A stretch of DNA of 64,000 nucleotides from Rheinheimera texasensis DSM 17496 (GTDB lineage: Bacteria > Pseudomonadota > Gammaproteobacteria > Enterobacterales > Alteromonadaceae), in contig NZ_KL544005.1 of assembly GCF_000711985.1 (NCBI RefSeq), positions 757,970 to 821,969 on the forward strand, in the 5' to 3' direction. Below are positions 37,078-47,834 of the stretch, piece after piece (within the stretch, counting starts at the first letter, position 1; every line of letters starts with the position of its first letter). The notes under the pieces are model-generated. The model ran no database searches. It was not told the origin of the DNA and was given only the letters and a program-made list of their open reading frames with translations. Both the position numbers and the translations under genes were made by a program.

Positions 37078-38313
37078 ATGTTAGCTTTCTGGCAAATGTT
37101 CAGTCAGTGCGCGCAAAGTGCGGTGTTATCGATCCGGCTGCATTTACTGCGCAGCGGCCTGACCACGCTCGGTATTATTATCGGTGTGGCGGCTGTCATT
37201 AGCGTGGTCGCCATTATGCAGGGCTTAAGCGCCGGTATTCGCGGCCAGCTCGATGATTTAGGTTCTGATATGACCACCCTGCGCGCATTTACCACGCCGG
37301 ACCAGGAACTGCTGGGTTTTCGCAATAAACTCACCGACAGTGATTACGACGCCTTATTGAATAAAATCAGCGACTTTGAGCAAATCACTGTAGCGATGCC
37401 GGCTTTTAGTATGGGGCTCAGTGTCAGTTATGGCCGCAGCAGCAGCCAAAGCCAGCTGATTGGCGCGGCGCCGAATTACCAGCATGTGATTCGGATTTAC
37501 CCGCAGCTCGGCCGCTTTATCCTGCCGCAGGATGACGAACGCCGCCGCCGGGTGGCGTTTATCGGCCCATCACTGATTAACAAACTGCAGCTGCCGGCCA
37601 ATCCGGTCGGCGAATTTGTGCTGATCTCCGGCGACTGGTTCCGCATTATCGGTGTCGGCGAAAAACGCGGCAGCCTGTTTGGGTTTGACCAGGACAACTA
37701 CATCATCACGCCATTTCAGACCGCTAAAGCGCTGAATGGCCCGGACCAGTTGCAGGTTGAAATCAGCTATCGCGCCAAAGCCGGCGTCGATGAACAGCTG
37801 CTGCAGCAGCAAATCCGCAACGTGCTTCGCACCAAACGCGGCCTCGCCAGCGATGCGGCCGACCCTTTTGAATTTATCACCGCCGAGAAAATGAAAAGCC
37901 AGTTTAACCAAGTACTGAATTCCGTCACGCTGGTGGCAGCTGGTGTGGTTGGCATCAGTTTGCTGGTCGGTGGCATTGGCGTGATGAATATCATGCTGGT
38001 GTCGGTGACAGAACGCACCCGCGAAATCGGCATCGTCAAAGCGCTGGGCGCGACACCGCAGGTGATTTTGCTGCAGTTTTTACTCGAAGCCGTGCTGCTG
38101 AGTTTATTTGGTGGTTTGCTTGGTTTGTTGCTCGGTTATGGCGTCGCAGCTTTGCTTGGTGCGTTAATTCCGGGCCTCGCAGATGCCATGGTACCGCTGT
38201 GGGCGGTGTTGTTATCGCTGGGCTTTACCACTTTTATCGGCGTGGTATTTGGCCTGATGCCGGCGGTGAAGGCTGCCAGACTTGCACCTATTGATGCGCT
38301 GCGGTATGAATAA
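37078..38313 (+). CDS. MacB/FtsX-type ABC exporter permease
   Basis: About 411 residues from ATG 37078 (AAGGA 7 nt upstream; an in-frame TTG at 37072 is too close to it). TM1 (about 22-45: LTTLGIIIGVAAVISVVAI) leads into a periplasmic MacB_PCD domain (about 50-280). Three C-terminal TM segments (about 285-310, 335-365, 370-395) with TERTREIGIVKALGATP and the end AARLAPIDALRYE are classic MacB/FtsX signatures. Confidence 0.92.
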   Translation: MLAFWQMFSQCAQSAVLSIRLHLLRSGLTTLGIIIGVAAVISVVAIMQGLSAGIRGQLDDLGSDMTTLRAFTTPDQELLGFRNKLTDSDYDALLNKISDFEQITVAMPAFSMGLSVSYGRSSSQSQLIGAAPNYQHVIRIYPQLGRFILPQDDERRRRVAFIGPSLINKLQLPANPVGEFVLISGDWFRIIGVGEKRGSLFGFDQDNYIITPFQTAKALNGPDQLQVEISYRAKAGVDEQLLQQQIRNVLRTKRGLASDAADPFEFITAEKMKSQFNQVLNSVTLVAAGVVGISLLVGGIGVMNIMLVSVTERTREIGIVKALGATPQVILLQFLLEAVLLSLFGGLLGLLLGYGVAALLGALIPGLADAMVPLWAVLLSLGFTTFIGVVFGLMPAVKAARLAPIDALRYE

Positions 38314-38344
38314 GCCGTTGAAATTTATCAGAACAGGAACCCAG

Positions 38345-39559
38345 ATGTCCGAATTAGCAACTCGTGGCTGGCAAGCTCGCCTGCAGCGCTGGTGGCGCAT
38401 CAGTTTTCACTGCTCACCGGCTTATATCTGGGCCAGTCTCGCCTGTTATCTGGTATATCTGGTGTTTTATATGCTGTCGATCAGCGTGATGTTTAAATCA
38501 CCAAACTTCGACACCTATTTGTTAGCAACGCTGCGCGGTGCAATTGACACCAGCCTGATGGCGCTATTTTGCCATTTCCTCATTCGGCCATATCTGAAAC
38601 TCGAACTACTTCCACAAGGCCGGTATGGCAGTAATTTATTCGGCTTTTTGTTGTACACCCTGCTGCTGGGGCAGTTGTTGATGTTTATATCGTTGAATCT
38701 GGCTGATTTAACGCCGCTGAAAGAGCTGGATTTTCGCAACATGTCGGTGCAAAAAGCTAATGGCGAAGAAATGCAGCTGCAAATCGGGCTGCCGATCCTG
38801 CAATTGATTGGCGGTTTTAATCAGGCCGTGCTGTTTTGGCTCTGGGCGTTGGCTTATGTGTTCTGGGGCACTTTGGTCAGTAAACGTCAGATGCAAAAAC
38901 AAATGCATCAGGCACAGCTACAGCAACTGACCAATCAGCTCAATCCGCACTTTTTATTTAATGCGCTGAACAGCATCCGCGCCCTGATTTATGAAGATCA
39001 GGACAAAGCCGCCGCCACTGTGACGCAGTTGTCGGAACTGTTCCGCTTCCATTTGCAGGCGCATTTGAAACCGTTATCCACGCTCGCCGACGAATGGCAA
39101 ATCACTTCGCAGTACCTGCAGATTGAGCAAGTGCGGCTGGAGCGACGCCTGCAACTGGACCTGCAGTTTGATGAGCAGCTGTGGCAGCAAAAACTCCCCA
39201 CATTAAGCCTGCTGACGCTGGTGGAAAACGCGATTAAACATGGCATTGCGCCGCTGCCGCAAGGCGGTCGGCTCTGGATTAAAAGCCGCCCGGTCGCCGC
39301 TGGCTGGCAGCTGATTGTTGGTAACACCAGCGCGGGTCTGAGCAGTACGCACGGTACCCGCACTGGCCTGAAAAACCTGCGCCAGCGTCTGGCATTATTA
39401 CCAGGCCGGCATCATTTGCATATCGAACCACAGCTGGAGCAGTATCAGGTCACTATCGAGCTGGAAGCTGGCCCGCTGGAACAACCTGCAGATTCAACTT
39501 CCCACACCACCGCCACTGAAATGGAGCTTCATCATGTGGAAAACCCTGATCGTCGATGA
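38345..39559 (+). CDS. LytS/YehU-type sensor histidine kinase
   Basis: About 404 residues from ATG 38345 (AGGAA 7 nt upstream; another possible start at 38306 overlaps the permease stop but lacks an RBS). Four TM segments form the N-terminal half (about 25-50, 58-80, 95-118, 155-185). The phospho-acceptor is in QLNPHFLFNALNSIRALI, the His_kinase motif of the LytS class. The ATPase part shows LTLVENAIKHGIAPL (N-box) and GTRTGLKNLRQRLALL. No extracellular sensor domain is apparent, so it may sense the membrane or the adjacent transporter. Partner of the next gene. Confidence 0.92.
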   Translation: MSELATRGWQARLQRWWRISFHCSPAYIWASLACYLVYLVFYMLSISVMFKSPNFDTYLLATLRGAIDTSLMALFCHFLIRPYLKLELLPQGRYGSNLFGFLLYTLLLGQLLMFISLNLADLTPLKELDFRNMSVQKANGEEMQLQIGLPILQLIGGFNQAVLFWLWALAYVFWGTLVSKRQMQKQMHQAQLQQLTNQLNPHFLFNALNSIRALIYEDQDKAAATVTQLSELFRFHLQAHLKPLSTLADEWQITSQYLQIEQVRLERRLQLDLQFDEQLWQQKLPTLSLLTLVENAIKHGIAPLPQGGRLWIKSRPVAAGWQLIVGNTSAGLSSTHGTRTGLKNLRQRLALLPGRHHLHIEPQLEQYQVTIELEAGPLEQPADSTSHTTATEMELHHVENPDRR

Positions 39560-40271
39560 CGAGCGCCTGGCGCGCAGCGAACTCAAACGTTTGCTGCAAG
39601 CCCATCCCGACATCGAGATTGTCGCCGAGGCAGACAGCGCCGACAGCGCGCGCGACATTCTGGCCACGCAGCCCGACATCGCTTTAGTGTTTCTGGATAT
39701 TCAAATGCCGGGCAGCAGCGGGCTGGAACTGGCGGCAGAGCTCAGGCCCAACCTGTTTTTTGTGTTCTGCACCGCTTTTGACAGCTATGCGCTGGACGCC
39801 TTTGCGCTCAATGCGCTGGATTATCTGGTCAAGCCCATAGTGCCGCAACGACTGGCGCAAAGCTTAAGCCGCTTGCCGGCTGCTGCAGCTGGCAACGCGG
39901 TCGTTTCGGAACAGCAAAGCCAGAACTATCTGCCAGACAGCCACGGTTTATTGCTGAAATTCGGCGAAAACAGCCGCATTGTGCGGTTAAGTGATATTTG
40001 CCGCTTTGAATCGGTTGGCAATCACAGCGCGGTCTACACGCCATACGGCAAAAGTTTTGTATTAAGTTCGCTGTCGCGCATCGAACAACGGCTCGACCCG
40101 CAGCAGTTTTTTAAAGCCAGCCGCGCCGACATTATCCGTATCAGCGCCATCACCGCATTAGAACCCGGTGTCGCCGCCGGCAGCATGCTGGCGATTTTAC
40201 AAGACGGCCAACAAATCGACGTCAGCCGCCGCCAGGTGCAACAGCTTAAAACCTTGTTTGGCGGGTTTTAG
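39534..40271 (+). CDS. LytTR-family response regulator
   Basis: 245 residues. REC domain (about 1-120) with D8/D9 and phospho-acceptor D55 in VFLDIQMPGSSG. A C-terminal LytTR DNA-binding domain (about 138-245) contains FGENSRIVRLSDICRFESVGNHSAVYT, FKASRADIIRISAI and the end VSRRQVQQLKTL. It overlaps the kinase gene by 26 nt, so the two are co-expressed, and it probably autoregulates the whole operon; I could not find a confident LytTR direct-repeat site. Confidence 0.93.
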   Translation: MWKTLIVDDERLARSELKRLLQAHPDIEIVAEADSADSARDILATQPDIALVFLDIQMPGSSGLELAAELRPNLFFVFCTAFDSYALDAFALNALDYLVKPIVPQRLAQSLSRLPAAAAGNAVVSEQQSQNYLPDSHGLLLKFGENSRIVRLSDICRFESVGNHSAVYTPYGKSFVLSSLSRIEQRLDPQQFFKASRADIIRISAITALEPGVAAGSMLAILQDGQQIDVSRRQVQQLKTLFGGF

Positions 40272-40305: not shown

Positions 40306-41685
40306 TTAGCCGCCAACAATGCCCAGCGGCTTGGTTTTTTGCCACAGGCCGCGGGTGAAATCCGGGAAATCGCGGCTGTTACCACGGTCAGCCACGGATG
40401 CGACCGACAGCGGTAACACTGCCGACCAGGCGGCGCCGTCGTAGACGTCCTGATCCAATGGCTCGGCATTACGCAGGCAATAAATCAGCCGCCAGCACAT
40501 CAGGAAATCCATGCCACCATGGCCGCCGTTGCGTTCGGCTTCACGGCCCATGCGTTGCCACAGCGGGTGGTCGTACTGCTGATACCAGGGCGTCATATCC
40601 ATATCCCACTCATGATAACTGCCGCCACGGCCGCCGGTTTCCAGCGCGATACGATTGGGGAAACCGGCAAAGACGCCATTGGTACCCTGAATGAGGTTAT
40701 GCCGGCTATATGGCCGCGGTGTAGTGGTGTCATGCTGCAGCATGATAGTCCGGCCCTGCACCGTTTTGATGATGCTGGTATTGATGTCACCACAAGTGTA
40801 TTTGATTTGGTTGCGCGGATGGTCAGCCGGGAATTCGCGTTTGGCATATTCAGCGCGGCCAATCGCCGGTGAGCTGACCGAGTTCAGGAAATCAAAGCGG
40901 TCGCCGCGGTTAATGCCCATATATTGCGCCACCGGGCCTAAGCCATGGGTTGGATACAAGTTGCCGTTTTGCCGCGCTTCTTCAAAAGTGCGCCATGAGC
41001 CGGTTTTGCGCTCGATCTCTTTGATTTGCCAGCGTAATTCGTGGATATACGCCGCTTCGCCATGCAGCAGTTCGCCAAACAGGCCTTGGCGCACCATATT
41101 CAGCACCATTAACTCGTCGCGGCCATAACAGACATTTTCCAGCATCATGCAGTTGCGTTGCGTCGCTTCAGCCGTGTCGACCAAATCCCACATCTGCTCC
41201 AGCTCCAGCGCCATCGGCACTTCGACAAAGGCATGTTTGCCGGCAAGCATGGCAGCTTTGGCCATCGGATGGTGCAGTGCCCATGGCGTCGCAATCACGA
41301 CGATATCGACATCTTGCCGCGCTAATAGCTGGTGATAGCTATCCGGGCTGTCACCAAAATACGCCGGCTGTGGTTTGGCCATTTTGTCGAACAAACCGCG
41401 CGCGCGTTGCAGCGTTTGTGGATCCGTGTCACAAATTGCCGTGATGCGGGCGCCTTCGATTTGGCTGAAATGGCTGATATAACCAACACCGCGCTCGCCG
41501 ACGCCAATTAAACCCACCCGCACTTCTGCCATCGCCGGCACCACCAGCCCCATCACCGATTTGCCTTTGGCTGCCGGTGCTGCACCGGTGGGTTTAACGC
41601 CCTGTTGGCTGCAGGCCGCTGCTACACCCAGTGCCGCAGTGGCCATCGAAGCTTTCATAAAACTGCGCCGGTTAAAATTCGCCAT
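40306..41685 (-). CDS. GH109-type Gfo/Idh/MocA oxidoreductase, Tat-exported
   Basis: 459 residues. Twin-arginine signal NRRSFMKAS followed by a hydrophobic stretch and AAACS. Rossmann NAD site [13 protein letters not shown], then [27 protein letters not shown], the Gfo/Idh/MocA core with the catalytic region. [16 protein letters not shown] and [14 protein letters not shown] are characteristic of family GH109 enzymes, which use NAD in an elimination-type mechanism to cleave alpha-N-acetylgalactosamine (established for family members). Export suggests action on glycans outside the cytoplasm. RBS CAGGAG. Convergent with the LytTR operon. Confidence 0.87.
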
Positions 41686-42022
41686 AACTCTCTCCTGTGA
41701 TGGTTTCCGCCAGTGTTGCTGCGCGCCGGAGCGCCGTCAGACCTGACTGTTTTTATCAGTTGATGGCTTTGGTATAACACAAATAAAAATACATTGAAAC
41801 ACTTTCGATTTGTTACGAACAAAATTTGCGACCAGCAGCTGCAGCAACATAAACAGCAGGCGCCCACGGGTCGCGGCTTTGCGGCCTTGTCACGAGTGAC
41901 AATAATTAATTCATTTAAATTCATATAGATAAAAATTATTTAAAAATAATTGTCACAATTACCGCAGGAGCCGGCACTAGGAGATATCAGCAAGACATAT
42001 CACCAACACAAAGGAATTTCAT
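41686..42022. promoter_or_regulatory. 337-bp divergent intergenic region with three palindromes
   Basis: No gene is visible. The region between the GH109 gene (minus) and the hydrolase-sigma operon (plus) holds TTTGTT-ACG-AACAAA at 41809-41823, TTGTCAC-GA-GTGACAA at 41887-41902 and AATTGT-C-ACAATT at 41948-41960, with a strongly AT-rich block between the last two. On the minus strand TTTCAA and TATACC with 17 bp between could be a GH109 promoter. Each palindrome is a perfect inverted repeat seen directly; the binding proteins are unknown. Confidence 0.5.
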
Positions 42023-43006
42023 ATGTTTAAATGTGCCAATCCCACCACTGCCGTTCGTTTATCGATGATCCCAACTATTTTTGTTGCGGTTTTTGCGGCG
42101 AACCAGTCTGGTCATAGTCATGCGGCCCCGGCACCAAAAGCAGTCACAGCGCCGGTTGCAGTCAGTGCAGTTGTGAGCGCAGCGACAGCACCAAGCTTTA
42201 GTGTCGAAGTGATTGGTAAAGGCCGGCCGGTCATTTTAATTCCGGGGCTAATGTCATCCCCGACCGTCTGGCAAAGCACTGTCGATGCATTAAAAGCCGA
42301 CCATCAGCTGCATCTTGTTCATCTGGCTGGTTTTGCCGGCAAAGCGGCCCGCACGGGTATGCAGCCGGATAGCTCATTGCTCGGTGTGGTACAGCAGGAA
42401 TTATTGGCTTATATCGCAGCCAAACAGTTGCAGCAGCCAGTGGTGATTGGTCATAGCCTCGGTGGTTTTCTGGCGTTTGCGCTGGCAAGCAGCGCACCGG
42501 ATACCATAGGCCCGATTGTCTCAGTGGACGGTCTGCCGTATTTAGCCCCGGTCTTTACCCGCAATCCGGCGACCACGGCGGCACAGATGCAAACGCAGGC
42601 TACACAAATCAGCGTGCAATATGGCGGTATGACCAAAGCCCAGCTCAGCCAGGCCACGGCACAAGGTTTATTTATTCAGGCGACCAGCCCGGCAGCACAG
42701 CAACAGGTGTTGGCGATGGCGGAGCAGTCAGATCCAACCACTGTCGGCCGGGTGATGGCAGAACTGCTGACCACCGATTTACGGCCGCAAGTGGCCAACA
42801 TCAAACATCCGGTGTTGTTATTAGGCGCCAGCGGGGCTTTACCACCACAGGCACAGGCGGGCGTCAAAGCTCTATATCAGCAGCAACTGGAAAAATTACC
42901 GGCAGCACAACTCGACATCAATACCAACGCAAGGCACTTTATTATGCTGGACGACCCGGCCTGGCTGAATCGAAAAATCCGCAGCTTTCTGCAAGAGGCA
43001 AAATAA
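42023..43006 (+). CDS. Exported alpha/beta hydrolase
   Basis: 327 residues, RBS AAAGGA 7 nt before ATG. A signal peptide (about 1-35, ending HSHAAPAP) precedes an Ala/Pro/Val-rich linker. Core: VILIPGLMSSPTVW (oxyanion), VVIGHSLGGFLAF (nucleophile Ser), VLLLGASGALP, and NARHFIMLDDP with the probable catalytic His. Substrate unknown. The next gene, an ECF sigma factor, starts 1 nt after its stop, so the two are one translational unit. Confidence 0.85.
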   Translation: MFKCANPTTAVRLSMIPTIFVAVFAANQSGHSHAAPAPKAVTAPVAVSAVVSAATAPSFSVEVIGKGRPVILIPGLMSSPTVWQSTVDALKADHQLHLVHLAGFAGKAARTGMQPDSSLLGVVQQELLAYIAAKQLQQPVVIGHSLGGFLAFALASSAPDTIGPIVSVDGLPYLAPVFTRNPATTAAQMQTQATQISVQYGGMTKAQLSQATAQGLFIQATSPAAQQQVLAMAEQSDPTTVGRVMAELLTTDLRPQVANIKHPVLLLGASGALPPQAQAGVKALYQQQLEKLPAAQLDINTNARHFIMLDDPAWLNRKIRSFLQEAK

Positions 43007-43007
43007 C

Positions 43008-44150
43008 ATGGACCACAGCATCGAATTACAACTAATGCCTGACGTGTTAGCGGCACAACAAGGCGACATGGCGGCCTATCAGCGTCTGATCAACCGCTGT
43101 CGCCAGATGGTCAGCAGTATTGCGCTCGCCATCGTCAAAGATTTAGACCGTAGCGAAGATATCGCCCAGCAGGTATTTATCCACGTCTGGCAACAATTGC
43201 CGCAACTGCGTGAAACCAGCAGCTTTTTACCCTGGGTGCGGCAAATCACCCGTTATCAGGCTTTTCATGGCCTGCGCGACCAAAAAGCCCGGCGGGAACT
43301 GGATGGCGACGACGCAGAATCTGTATTAGCCGAATTCATCGATCCGGACGCCTGCCCGGAGCTGTGGCATGGCCGCGCTGAACAGAGCCAACTGTTGCAA
43401 CAATTTCTCGACGCGCTGCCGGCTGAAAGCCGTGAAATGTTGCTGCTGTATTATCGGGAAGACCAATCCAGCAGCCAGGTGGCGGCCTTGCTCGGCATCA
43501 GCGAAGCCAATGTCCGCAAAAAGCTACAGCGGGTGCGTGAATCGTTAAAAGAACAATGGCTGAGCCGTTACGGCCAGCTGATTTTGTCGACCGCGCCCGG
43601 GCTTGGGTTTTCCGCAGCGCTCACTGCCGCACTGGCCACCGCCAGTCCGCCAGCGGCGGCTATGGCAGCCGATCAGTTGGTGCAGACTGTCGCGCCGGGC
43701 GCAGCCTCAGGCCCGCTGAAGTTGTTGGCCCTGTTGGGTGGAGCCGCTATCGGTGCCTTACTGGCAGTGGCAGCCGTGTTTTACGGCATGAAACCGGCGA
43801 TAGACCGTGCCGACAGCGCCGAACTTGCGGCACAATTACGCCAGCTCAGACGCCGCACTATGGCCTGGATGGCGTTGTTTGGCTTGTGTTGGGTAGCGGC
43901 CTATGAGCTGACGCAAAGCGCCTGGGGACCCATCGCGTGCATGACGATGCTGACCGTGTTACTGCTCAGCACTCAAGTCCAGCTCAGTCGCCTGCTGGCA
44001 CCACAACAGGCGCGGGAAAGAGCGGCAGAGCCAAAAGCTGCGGCTAAACAACGCCGGCAATGGCTGGGGTGTGCAATAGGAACTGTTGTCGGCATCGGCT
44101 CCGGCTGGGCCGGCATGATTGCCGGATTAATCGCGTCGGGCCGGCTTTAA
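43008..44150 (+). CDS. ECF sigma factor with membrane-embedded C-terminal domain
   Basis: 380 residues, about twice the usual ECF length. Sigma2 region (about 13-90): AYQRLINRCRQMV, DLDRSEDIAQQVFIHVWQQL, FLPWVRQITRYQAF. Sigma4 (about 125-180): LDALPAESREMLLLYYREDQSSSQVAALLGISEANVRKKLQRVRESL. From about 195 the chain is hydrophobic: segments near 237-258, 283-300, 305-322 and 350-375, with a basic loop (QARERAAEPKAAAKQRRQ). No separate anti-sigma gene follows. The tail may tether and hold the sigma factor at the membrane until a signal releases it (inference). The partner hydrolase gene is directly upstream. Confidence 0.88.
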   Translation: MDHSIELQLMPDVLAAQQGDMAAYQRLINRCRQMVSSIALAIVKDLDRSEDIAQQVFIHVWQQLPQLRETSSFLPWVRQITRYQAFHGLRDQKARRELDGDDAESVLAEFIDPDACPELWHGRAEQSQLLQQFLDALPAESREMLLLYYREDQSSSQVAALLGISEANVRKKLQRVRESLKEQWLSRYGQLILSTAPGLGFSAALTAALATASPPAAAMAADQLVQTVAPGAASGPLKLLALLGGAAIGALLAVAAVFYGMKPAIDRADSAELAAQLRQLRRRTMAWMALFGLCWVAAYELTQSAWGPIACMTMLTVLLLSTQVQLSRLLAPQQARERAAEPKAAAKQRRQWLGCAIGTVVGIGSGWAGMIAGLIASGRL

Positions 44151-44225: not shown

Positions 44226-47200
44226 TTACCGAGGTTGACGGAATTCCCGCACCGACAGTTGCTGGCGCCAAATCAGCCGCCAGTCACCCCCCGGTGGCAA
44301 TGCGCTGCTATCACGGCAGAATTGGCCTGCTGTTTCGTTTAGCGCCAATACGGTATCTTCGCCGTTTTGCTGATGTATCACACTCAGCGTGGCGTCTTTG
44401 CCGGCCGGCCAGCTCACACAGAGCTGATTGGCGCTCTCGTCCAGTTGGAACTGGCTCTGGCTCAGTTGCTGCTGTTGCTGCTGTTGCTGTTGACCAGCGC
44501 TGCCGGCCAGCGCAGCTGAATGATCCTGCGTCGCAACTAACACGCCGTTTTGCCAGATCTCAAAACGCTGAATATTCATCTGCGGCAGTTCCACGCTGAA
44601 ATGTTGCTCAGCCCGGTCGGTCGGATGATCAAGCTTTAGCAGCTGCAGGTTAAATTCAAACCAGCTGCCCTGCTCGTTTAACACTCTGATACTGTAACCG
44701 CCCGGTGCTTCGCTGCGCGGGGCACGCGATAACGGCATTAATGTCCTTACCTGCACATTGCTGCCCTGCAAAGTGCCGGCGAGGTATAAGGCGCTACCGC
44801 CCGATTGGGCCTGAGCGGCGGCCTGTGTCGGCGTCGGGAATGCTGCCGGCGGGTTCTTTTTCACAAACTCCTGCACTGCCGCCACACTGTAATCCGACAC
44901 ATGTTTAGGGCCGCAATATGACATCAAGTCTTTATGATCATCCGGCGACATCCAGCCAGTCAGCGCTAAATCCAACCCGACTGAGCCCATGCTGGAAGTT
45001 GGATATGGATAAGCCGGATCCGGGCCGGCCGGGTTGCCACAACCGACATGTTGCCGGCCAAAGTTGTGCCCCAGCTCATGCGCCAGAATTTCACCACTAT
45101 CATTGTCAACACCGACGGCAATGGGTGCCCCGATGTAACCTAAACCACCACAGCAATTATCCCCCATCTCCGGTTTAAAATAACCGTAGTAATACACCCC
45201 TTCACCTTCAATGCGGCGCAAATCTGCCAGCTCCGGCAACATCACATAAGCGGAGGATTTCGTACCGCCGGCTTTGAGCTGATAAGGCGCGCGGGCCCGT
45301 ACATCAATCTGACTAAAAGGCCAGTAGGTGCGAACAGCATTCTTCACTGCATTGACATCAGGGAGTGTCGCGACCTGGTCTCCAAGCTGAAATGGCACAA
45401 TCCGGATCGCCAGCGGCCGTGCCGGCGCAAATGGTGGTGTATAGGTCCGGACCAGTTGGCCGTCCTGTAACACTTTGATTTGCAAACCAGGTTGCATCCA
45501 ACTGGCCGGAATGATCGCCTGATAAGCATCGGTCAGGCTGCGATGCACTTTGCTAACCGGGAGTTTTTTCGGTGCTACGGCGTCCAGCAGTTGGGTCTTG
45601 CCATTCAACTGCAAATCAAGTTGAAATTTCGGCAGGACTGCCGGGCTTTGAGCTGATGTCACGTGCAATCGCAACAAACCATCGCGTTCAGCCACCAATA
45701 ACGGCTTCGCAGAAATAGTAATTTGACTTAAATCCAAACTTTGCAGTGCCGGTTGTGTCGGAGCAGCCCCAACTTCGTCCAGTTTCACCAGTTTTTCGCC
45801 ACCAATCCCGTTATCAAACCAGATAGCCGGGCGGAATTGGTCGGCCTGATGGCCGCTGTAAGTTGCAGTGCCGGTTGCAGCACAAGCCTGTAAGGTTGAG
45901 GCACTTGAACCTGGTAATTGATCGTCCTGCTCCAGATATAAAGCACAATGCACCGGTCCAGTATTGCCACTGATCTGCCAGCTGTACTGCAAGCTGCGGT
46001 TCAACACCTGCGCCTGCACAGCGAATTGAGCGTCTTTGAAGGTGTCAGCACAATCACTACGTTTTTCTGCACCCAAGTACAGATACAAGTTCAGTTTGGC
46101 TTTTAAGGCTTCTAATTGCTCCAGGTGACGGGAGTAACCGTTCTGGTCAATGCAGCCAGAAATTTCTAATGACGCATTTTGAGTCAAAGGCAACTCGTTG
46201 AAAATATCTAGATTTTGTATCTTACTACTGTACATTGACAGCGACATTAGACGATTGACCTGACGCAGTGGGCTCAAGTCTGTCACCTCAGTACCCGAGA
46301 TACTCAGTCCCCATAAATTGGCAAGATTCGACAACACAGATAAATTCTGGACCTTGCTGTATTGCACGTCCAGATAACGTAATGGCGCCGCTGCCAACGG
46401 ACTTAAGTCAGTCGTATCACTAAACCACAAATAAAAGTTCTCTAAAGGCATGCCTTGTAACGGGCTTAAATCAAGCACAGCCTTGTTGCTGAGCCCCAGC
46501 TCTTTAAGCTGCAAACCACGCAATGGCGACAAATCCGTCGCAGGTGCATCAAATAACCACAACAATCGCAAGTTTTTTAATGAACTAAGCGGTTGAAAAC
46601 TGCTGATTGGGTTATAACCCAAATAGAGTTCCTGCAATTTAGTCAAATACTGCAAAGGCCAGATATCAACCACTTTGTTATTCTGAATCCGCAGATTTGT
46701 GAGACCCGCTGCGTACTGTAAGCCTTGCAAATCAACAACTTGCCCAGCATTCACCACCAAAGAAGTCAGCTGCGATAACTGCAATTTTGTGATATTGGCA
46801 CTGCCATCTACCCCCAAAACAGTTCGAACAACTTTGTCCAACCCTGCATCCGGGAAAACCACAATCGTATTGACGTTAAACTTTGCCTCAACAGTACAGG
46901 CTGCTGTGACAGGCGCTGTGGTAAACACCGCGCCTTGTAATTTGCCACCACAACCGGACGCCGTCGTGATATCAAAACCGGTATCCGGCAGCAGTGTCAG
47001 CTGCAGGCTTTCGCCGTATTTCACCTGTGGGTTTGCCAGATTCAGCTTGCCACCGCTGCTGCTTGTGGTCGTGACCTGGATCATGGCCGGTCCAAACACG
47101 GCATCCACTTTACAATCTGCAGTAATAGCGCCGGTGCGGTACACCTCGCCCTGCAACTGGCCATTACAGCCGCTGGCTGAATTGATCGCAAAACCACTGT

Positions 47201-47834
47201 CAGCTTTCAGCGTGACCGTGGTGGTATTGCCATGCTCCACTTTTTGCGTGACAGGTGTCACAGTGCCACCGGCATTGGCGGCGGCGCTCACGGTATAACT
47301 AAGCTTTTTGAAACTGGCGTTGACTTCACAAGCGGCAGTCACTGCGGCAACACTATAAATGTCACCACTGAGGCTACCATTGCAGCCGGTGACCTGATCA
47401 ATCTGATAACCGGATCCGGCTTTGACTGTCCATTCGGCTTTATCACCATAAAACAAGCGCTGTTCGGCCGGGGTGATAGTGCCGCCGGTGCCGGCTTTGG
47501 CGGTGAGCAGGAAGTTCTGTTTTTTGAAACTGGCGGTAACAGTACAGGCAGCGTTGACTGCCCCTGTAGTGTATTGACTCCCGGTCAGACTACCGGCACA
47601 ACCACTGACACTGTCAATGTCATAGCCAGTCGCCGGGCTCACCGTGAAAGTTGCTGTCGAACCCTGTCGCACCTGAGTGCTGGCCGGGCTCAGGCTGCCA
47701 CCGGCACCGGCTTGGGTGGACACAAGATATTGTTGCACTTCTGGTGTGACTGGTGCAGGGCTGTTCCCGCCTCCGCCGCCACAACCACTGAGACCCGCAC
47801 ATAAACTGAGGGTAAAAATTGTTTGATACCGCAT
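44226..47834 (-). CDS. Large lipoprotein: InlB-like repeats, leucine-rich repeats and zinc metalloprotease
   Basis: 1202 residues. Signal peptide with lipobox LSGC (C18) and a Gly5 stretch. Residues about 36-325 are four ~72-residue InlB B-type repeats, each with the pattern AGxGGxxxP...GYxI...GCxGxLxG...AxC.V and two cysteines probably paired. Residues about 340-570 are internalin-like LRRs (LTNLRIQNNKVVDIWPL, LQELYLGYNPISSFQPL, TDLSPLRGL). A metalloprotease domain near residue 920 has HELGHNFGRQH, a complete HExxHxxGxxH zinc site. A run of nine Gln (about 1110-1120) lies in the C-terminal part. It is probably a surface or secreted protease directed by its binding repeats; the target is unknown. 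Confidence 0.9.
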   Translation of the reverse strand: MRYQTIFTLSLCAGLSGCGGGGGNSPAPVTPEVQQYLVSTQAGAGGSLSPASTQVRQGSTATFTVSPATGYDIDSVSGCAGSLTGSQYTTGAVNAACTVTASFKKQNFLLTAKAGTGGTITPAEQRLFYGDKAEWTVKAGSGYQIDQVTGCNGSLSGDIYSVAAVTAACEVNASFKKLSYTVSAAANAGGTVTPVTQKVEHGNTTTVTLKADSGFAINSASGCNGQLQGEVYRTGAITADCKVDAVFGPAMIQVTTTSSSGGKLNLANPQVKYGESLQLTLLPDTGFDITTASGCGGKLQGAVFTTAPVTAACTVEAKFNVNTIVVFPDAGLDKVVRTVLGVDGSANITKLQLSQLTSLVVNAGQVVDLQGLQYAAGLTNLRIQNNKVVDIWPLQYLTKLQELYLGYNPISSFQPLSSLKNLRLLWLFDAPATDLSPLRGLQLKELGLSNKAVLDLSPLQGMPLENFYLWFSDTTDLSPLAAAPLRYLDVQYSKVQNLSVLSNLANLWGLSISGTEVTDLSPLRQVNRLMSLSMYSSKIQNLDIFNELPLTQNASLEISGCIDQNGYSRHLEQLEALKAKLNLYLYLGAEKRSDCADTFKDAQFAVQAQVLNRSLQYSWQISGNTGPVHCALYLEQDDQLPGSSASTLQACAATGTATYSGHQADQFRPAIWFDNGIGGEKLVKLDEVGAAPTQPALQSLDLSQITISAKPLLVAERDGLLRLHVTSAQSPAVLPKFQLDLQLNGKTQLLDAVAPKKLPVSKVHRSLTDAYQAIIPASWMQPGLQIKVLQDGQLVRTYTPPFAPARPLAIRIVPFQLGDQVATLPDVNAVKNAVRTYWPFSQIDVRARAPYQLKAGGTKSSAYVMLPELADLRRIEGEGVYYYGYFKPEMGDNCCGGLGYIGAPIAVGVDNDSGEILAHELGHNFGRQHVGCGNPAGPDPAYPYPTSSMGSVGLDLALTGWMSPDDHKDLMSYCGPKHVSDYSVAAVQEFVKKNPPAAFPTPTQAAAQAQSGGSALYLAGTLQGSNVQVRTLMPLSRAPRSEAPGGYSIRVLNEQGSWFEFNLQLLKLDHPTDRAEQHFSVELPQMNIQRFEIWQNGVLVATQDHSAALAGSAGQQQQQQQQQLSQSQFQLDESANQLCVSWPAGKDATLSVIHQQNGEDTVLALNETAGQFCRDSSALPPGGDWRLIWRQQLSVREFRQPR

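Follow-up and report, generated by a model that had tools for sequence, protein, structure and literature searches.

ECF41 sigma factors carry a C-terminal SnoaL-like extension and are encoded downstream of an enzyme gene; the resulting enzyme-sigma operon is their sole target and is read from a TGTCACA-n16-CGTC promoter (PMC3426412). IutY is an ECF sigma with a C-terminal membrane anti-sigma part, which is cut by Prc and RseP (PMC8999054). In ECF36 members, a fusion of 3-4 transmembrane (TM) helices (DUF2275) is located at the N-terminus (PMC8999054). Here, we describe a gene pair found in a window of 64,000 nucleotides, the whole stretch of DNA that was analysed, in which an exported alpha/beta hydrolase is followed by an ECF sigma with a fused membrane domain. 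Our preferred reading, which we hold to be reasonably probable, is that of an autoregulated ECF sigma held at the membrane, whose fused polytopic domain replaces a separate anti-sigma protein.

The hydrolase gene occupies positions 42023-43006 (+ strand, 327 aa) and the sigma gene positions 43008-44150 of the same strand. The sigma ORF begins 1 nt after the hydrolase ORF, as a preliminary description of this DNA had noted. The same description had remarked that no anti-sigma gene follows, and this holds. The next gene downstream (44226-47834) lies on the opposite strand and is convergent, which rules out an anti-sigma gene as neighbour of the sigma gene. The product of this convergent gene is a secreted protein of 1202 residues, in which leucine-rich-like repeats and a HELGHNFGRQH metalloprotease-type motif are present. 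Upstream of the pair, positions 40306-41685 (- strand) encode a Glycosyl hydrolase family 109-type oxidoreductase with a Tat signal, adjoining a LytTR response regulator and histidine kinase pair (38282-40271).

The ECF domain of the sigma corresponds to residues 1-185 (43008-43562, + strand). Regions 2 and 4 are recognised above the Pfam cut-offs (Sigma70_r2, 41.4 bits for a cut-off of 24; Sigma70_r4_2, 47.5 bits for a cut-off of 25.7) and the models of region 1 or region 3 give no Pfam match in the protein. With regions 2 and 4 only, the protein belongs to the ECF sigma factors. The closest solved ECFs are SigW, SigH and RpoE.

The product of the upstream ORF is, as judged from its sequence, a member of the alpha/beta hydrolase superfamily. 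It matches Abhydrolase_6 (E=1.4e-15), and the nucleophile elbow G143-H-S145-x-G147 (GHSLG) and His305 are invariant. The catalytic acid is absent from its usual place after strand 264-269; the candidate is the invariant Asp169, located right after strand 165-168. Orthologues have clear signal peptides, such as MKKTIFSVALTAASVLLTSNSMAS-ET, and the window hydrolase has a weaker one at its N-terminus, with the end SHA-AP (both read by eye). The AlphaFold2 (AF2) model of the hydrolase has an alpha/beta fold (pTM 0.69). A fold search with this model against the PDB returned many alpha/beta hydrolases, with the plant D14 receptors first and RsbQ within the top 50, and RsbQ and KAI2 also match the hydrolase in a profile search. 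These matches are generic to the superfamily and leave the substrate unfixed.

That the sigma runs on into a hydrophobic domain had been noticed previously, and the comparison of loci confirms it. This C-terminal part, from about residue 190 to residue 380 (~190 residues), is polytopic. It is a real domain and not a read-through, because it is conserved in 26 loci and contains invariant residues. The residues after ~190 matched nothing in the PDB and no family consistently in Pfam, which rules out a known membrane domain family; Pfam also gave no anti-sigma or zinc-finger domain in this part. The hydropathy profile reveals a weak segment (~190-213), a strong helix (~239-261), a hairpin (285-328) and a last helix (354-376). 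The first hydrophobic segment, residues about 190-218 (43575-43661, + strand), is only weakly hydrophobic in the window sigma (KD mean 1.15) and hydrophobic in many orthologues. Its S-P-x-A-A-A end resembles a signal-peptidase site, with mostly A/V at -3. TM helix 1 (residues about 238-261; 43719-43790, + strand) contains the motif LLGGAxIGA, has a hydropathy of 1.93 and is helical, with low confidence, in the AF2 model. TM helices 2 and 3 (residues 285-328; 43860-43991, + strand) are connected by a short outer turn, Y-E-x-T-x-G/S-x-x-x-P. TM helix 4 and the C-terminus (residues 354-380; 44067-44147, + strand) contain GxxxGxxxG and a terminal S-G-R. Apart from P197, the residues that are invariant in the 26 loci form clusters: P214 and A217 where the first segment ends (followed by A218 in 25/26), Y299, T302 and P308 of the outer turn, and G362, G366, G378 and R379 of the last helix.

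Loops 262-284 and 329-353 contain on average 6.1 and 5.6 Lys/Arg, respectively, and the TM2-TM3 turn and the 220-237 linker almost none. According to the positive-inside rule, the two Lys/Arg-rich loops should therefore be cytoplasmic. Because the sigma half and loop 262-284 would then both be in the cytoplasm, two crossings are expected before this loop; by this parity argument, the weak first segment would have to span the membrane. The predicted topology thus has five crossings, with the sigma half cytoplasmic and the C-terminus outside. It is drawn from hydropathy and charge since AF2 modelled the sigma poorly (mean pLDDT 49.6; long helices of low confidence at 237-266, 271-301, 306-340 and 342-377). 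The preliminary description had proposed that the fused domain holds the sigma at the membrane. The part of this proposal that concerns membrane attachment stands: the conserved hydrophobic helices and the charge pattern strongly indicate that the sigma is held there.

Of the 22 genomes of the genus Rheinheimera, 18 encode the sigma together with its membrane domain, as do 10 of 296 genomes sampled from the order, with the genome of the window counted. The hydrolase gene is directly upstream of the sigma gene in 27 loci from Rheinheimera and other Gammaproteobacteria, with sigma identities down to 36-42%. Twenty-six of these loci are those with sequence on both sides; the 27th, from another family (G794), is an extra pair, 2 nt apart, identified by a class-wide search with the hydrolase. 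The intergenic distance is between -4 and +6 nt in 23 of the 26 loci and 55-62 nt in the other three. Within the genus, all hydrolase-bearing genomes (17/17) also have the sigma and 4 genomes have neither; in G017, the contig end falls inside the sigma gene. Because of this distribution, the adjacency of the two genes is not a chance neighbourhood, and the preliminary description, which had made its proposal depend on conservation of the pair, is upheld on this point. No other neighbouring gene is common to the loci across genera. A larger conserved operon is thus ruled out, only the hydrolase and the sigma being shared.

The hydrolase is not a universal partner, since a distant genome (G571) contains two such sigmas without it. 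In this more distant gammaproteobacterium, the two genes form a tandem pair of membrane-fused ECF sigmas of the same family (L061, 6233-9772). Both are apparently preceded by GGTCACA-N15-CGTC, near the ECF41 motif (read by eye). Two copies of the hydrolase are found without the sigma, one in G405 and the other being the second copy of G007. The latter (L062, 4444-5529) is located between a TonB-type receptor and a transporter.

All 27 loci have a promoter motif, TGTCACA-N19-CTWRG or a close variant, ahead of the hydrolase gene (in L027, the -10 core reads CCTGG). In the window, the predicted -35 element TGTCACA is at 41951-41957 and the predicted -10 core CTAGG (family consensus CTTRG), 19 nt further, at 41977-41981, both on the + strand. 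TGTCACA and the 19-nt spacing are kept in 26/26 aligned loci and in G794, the spacing being constant in all loci read, and the surrounding DNA diverges between genera. As the motif precedes the hydrolase in each locus, hydrolase and sigma very probably form one sigma-controlled operon with its promoter at 41951-41981, and autoregulation is strongly indicated. The hydrolase itself would thus very probably be a target of the sigma. Its first role would therefore be that of an output, and the production of a signal, which the preliminary description had suggested, becomes one possibility among several for a part in feedback.

One other gene, for a membrane protein of ~90-113 residues, stands behind this promoter in 12 of the 18 sigma-bearing Rheinheimera genomes, the window's own not being among them. 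Besides the operon, a genus-wide search with the promoter pattern gave three further strong matches (G007, G011 and G013), each before this small-protein gene. A protein homology search identified the gene in nine more genomes, with the promoter ~70-75 nt upstream in 9/9. The gene is absent from the genus genomes that have no sigma (0/4). It is monocistronic, in most cases followed by a convergent gene, and is found in at least four gene contexts (L104-L115, 12 Rheinheimera genomes). A role of the small membrane protein as second target of the sigma in part of the genus is strongly indicated. It would not be a required part of the system, since homology and six-frame searches detected no copy in the window's genome or in G004, G008, G010, G016 and G017.

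The small protein has three TM helices and resembles TM2-TM4 of the sigma itself (hhalign E=8.4e-6 and 4.2e-5). Common features are a Y-x-x-G-W-x-x-P-like turn and a terminal S-G-R/K. As a control for composition, the small-protein profile was compared with six-frame translated genomes; the best match was the sigma C-terminal domain in G187, G082, G117 and G194 (E values of 3.2e-4, 5.4e-4, 0.027 and 0.061, respectively). The similarity can be partly compositional, both being membrane proteins.

When the genus was searched with the promoter pattern, the strong matches that fell outside long ORFs stood in front of either the operon or the small-protein gene. A wide regulon is ruled out, as other exact promoter matches are mostly inside long ORFs, as chance predicts; weaker promoters may have escaped. 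A TGTCACA-N19-CTAAG site is located 80 nt before a sensor/chemoreceptor-like gene (L102, L082 and L088) in the window's genome and two close relatives (G000, G010 and G017). This uncertain site was not accepted because its -10 context, CCTAAG, is different. A second strong promoter match (L187, G117:C433:9355-9385) precedes a short, apparently decayed hydrolase copy.

The architecture of the sigma, the conservation of the pair and of its promoter, and the promoter of the small-protein gene are established at the level of sequence. From this starting point, we infer the repression by the membrane, the manner of release, the nature of the signal and the direction of the feedback as follows. In the resting state, the membrane domain would act as a brake and keep the sigma at the inner membrane. 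As a sensor, it would perceive a signal in or across the membrane, and the sigma would be freed or exposed, either through a change in conformation or because the protein is cleaved within the first helix or close to it. The sigma would then recognise TGTCACA-N19-CTTRG and transcribe its own operon, so that the amounts of periplasmic hydrolase and of sigma rise. The separate gene for the small membrane protein would also be transcribed by the sigma in many Rheinheimera. Hydrolase and small protein would be feedback parts. The former most likely closes the loop by making, destroying or binding the signal, a signal made by the hydrolase being one option, and the latter by competing at the conserved outer turn. 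More tentatively, one may imagine a one-protein transmembrane transcription system in which the polytopic domain of the sigma is both sensor and brake. This domain would be tuned by the periplasmic hydrolase and by the small TM2-TM4 relative, the latter being a decoy or relief subunit that is expressed from the same promoter and resets the switch.

Other explanations differ on what the hydrolase does and on how the sigma is controlled. The hydrolase might be an effector only: the sigma would sense something else, and the hydrolase, together with the small protein, would act on the stress, as with ECF41 sigmas. In all paired loci, the promoter stands ahead of the hydrolase gene, which reproduces the ECF41 layout, enzyme then sigma (PMC3426412), and we regard this explanation as plausible, if not the one to be expected. 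The near-exclusive pairing in one operon is also expected of a sensor or feedback part, and RsbQ, D14 and similar alpha/beta hydrolases serve as receptors in signalling, although the fold match is generic. A membrane domain that merely localises an always-active sigma, with transcription alone setting the activity, would agree with the strong autoregulation signature and with a C-terminal part in which no anti-sigma domain is recognised. However, a sigma that is always active and autoregulated would become locked in the on state, and the invariant residues exceed the needs of a plain anchor. We consider such a passive role very improbable.

Proteolytic release of the sigma is possible. In a scheme of regulated intramembrane proteolysis, the first segment would be an internal signal-anchor, cut at the outer S-P-x-A-A-A by a signal-peptidase-like or other site-1 protease, and a second cut, by RseP, would then release the sigma, as happens with P. 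putida IutY. Conservation of P214, A217 and, in 25/26, A218, with mostly A/V at -3, argues for such a site. The N-inside orientation also suits RseP, being the one that this protease uses. IutY, cut by Prc and RseP, provides a precedent (PMC8999054). Yet no protease gene is linked to the pair, S-P-x-A-A-A may be only a helix end, and the remaining TM helices would stay in the membrane with their role unexplained. On balance, we view this scheme as rather unlikely.

If the reading of an autoregulated membrane-held sigma is true, membrane-to-gene signalling would be contained in one polypeptide, without an anti-sigma factor or a two-component partner. Because the promoter is defined and the predicted regulon consists of one or two transcripts, experiments in this cultivable genus could address the signal, the release and the feedback directly. 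The small protein would provide a natural handle on the function of the membrane domain.

Literature searches, with the 2021 ECF classification outside their reach, gave no description of this hydrolase-sigma pair. The sigma may be a new variant among the ECFs with regulatory extensions and may already hold a group number in that classification. It is ECF41-like in its layout. Common to both are a fused regulatory C-terminal extension, the lack of an anti-sigma, an enzyme in the same operon, the -35 element TGTCACA (26/26 loci) and a very small predicted regulon. Two defining ECF41 features are absent. Instead of a SnoaL-like domain, the window sigma has a polytopic membrane domain, its hydrophobic C-terminal half giving no Pfam match, and instead of a CGTC -10 element after ~16 nt, it has a CTTRG core 19 nt after the -35 element. 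In addition, the ECF41 enzymes are carboxymuconolactone decarboxylases, oxidoreductases or epimerases, whereas an exported alpha/beta hydrolase is found here.

In IutY (ECF243) and in ECF48, ECF52 and ECF53, a C-terminal transmembrane extension replaces a separate membrane anti-sigma (PMC8999054). Such an extension is predicted here from hydropathy and conservation. However, those sigmas carry a recognisable anti-sigma or zinc-finger part, whereas none is recognised by Pfam in the window sigma. ECF48, ECF52 and ECF53 have one or two TM helices, compared with four to five here, and the window sigma has no TonB receptor link. A polytopic membrane fusion is shared with ECF36 members (PMC8999054), but at the opposite end of the protein, and DUF2275 was not found in the window sigma. 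As for the hydrolase, alpha/beta hydrolases also take part in the signalling paths of RsbQ (sigma-B pathway) and of the plant D14/KAI2 receptors, which it matches by profile (RsbQ, KAI2) and by fold (D14, RsbQ), the fold match being generic to the superfamily. RsbQ is cytoplasmic and works with RsbP. In contrast, the window hydrolase is exported, and its partner is an ECF sigma fused to a membrane domain.
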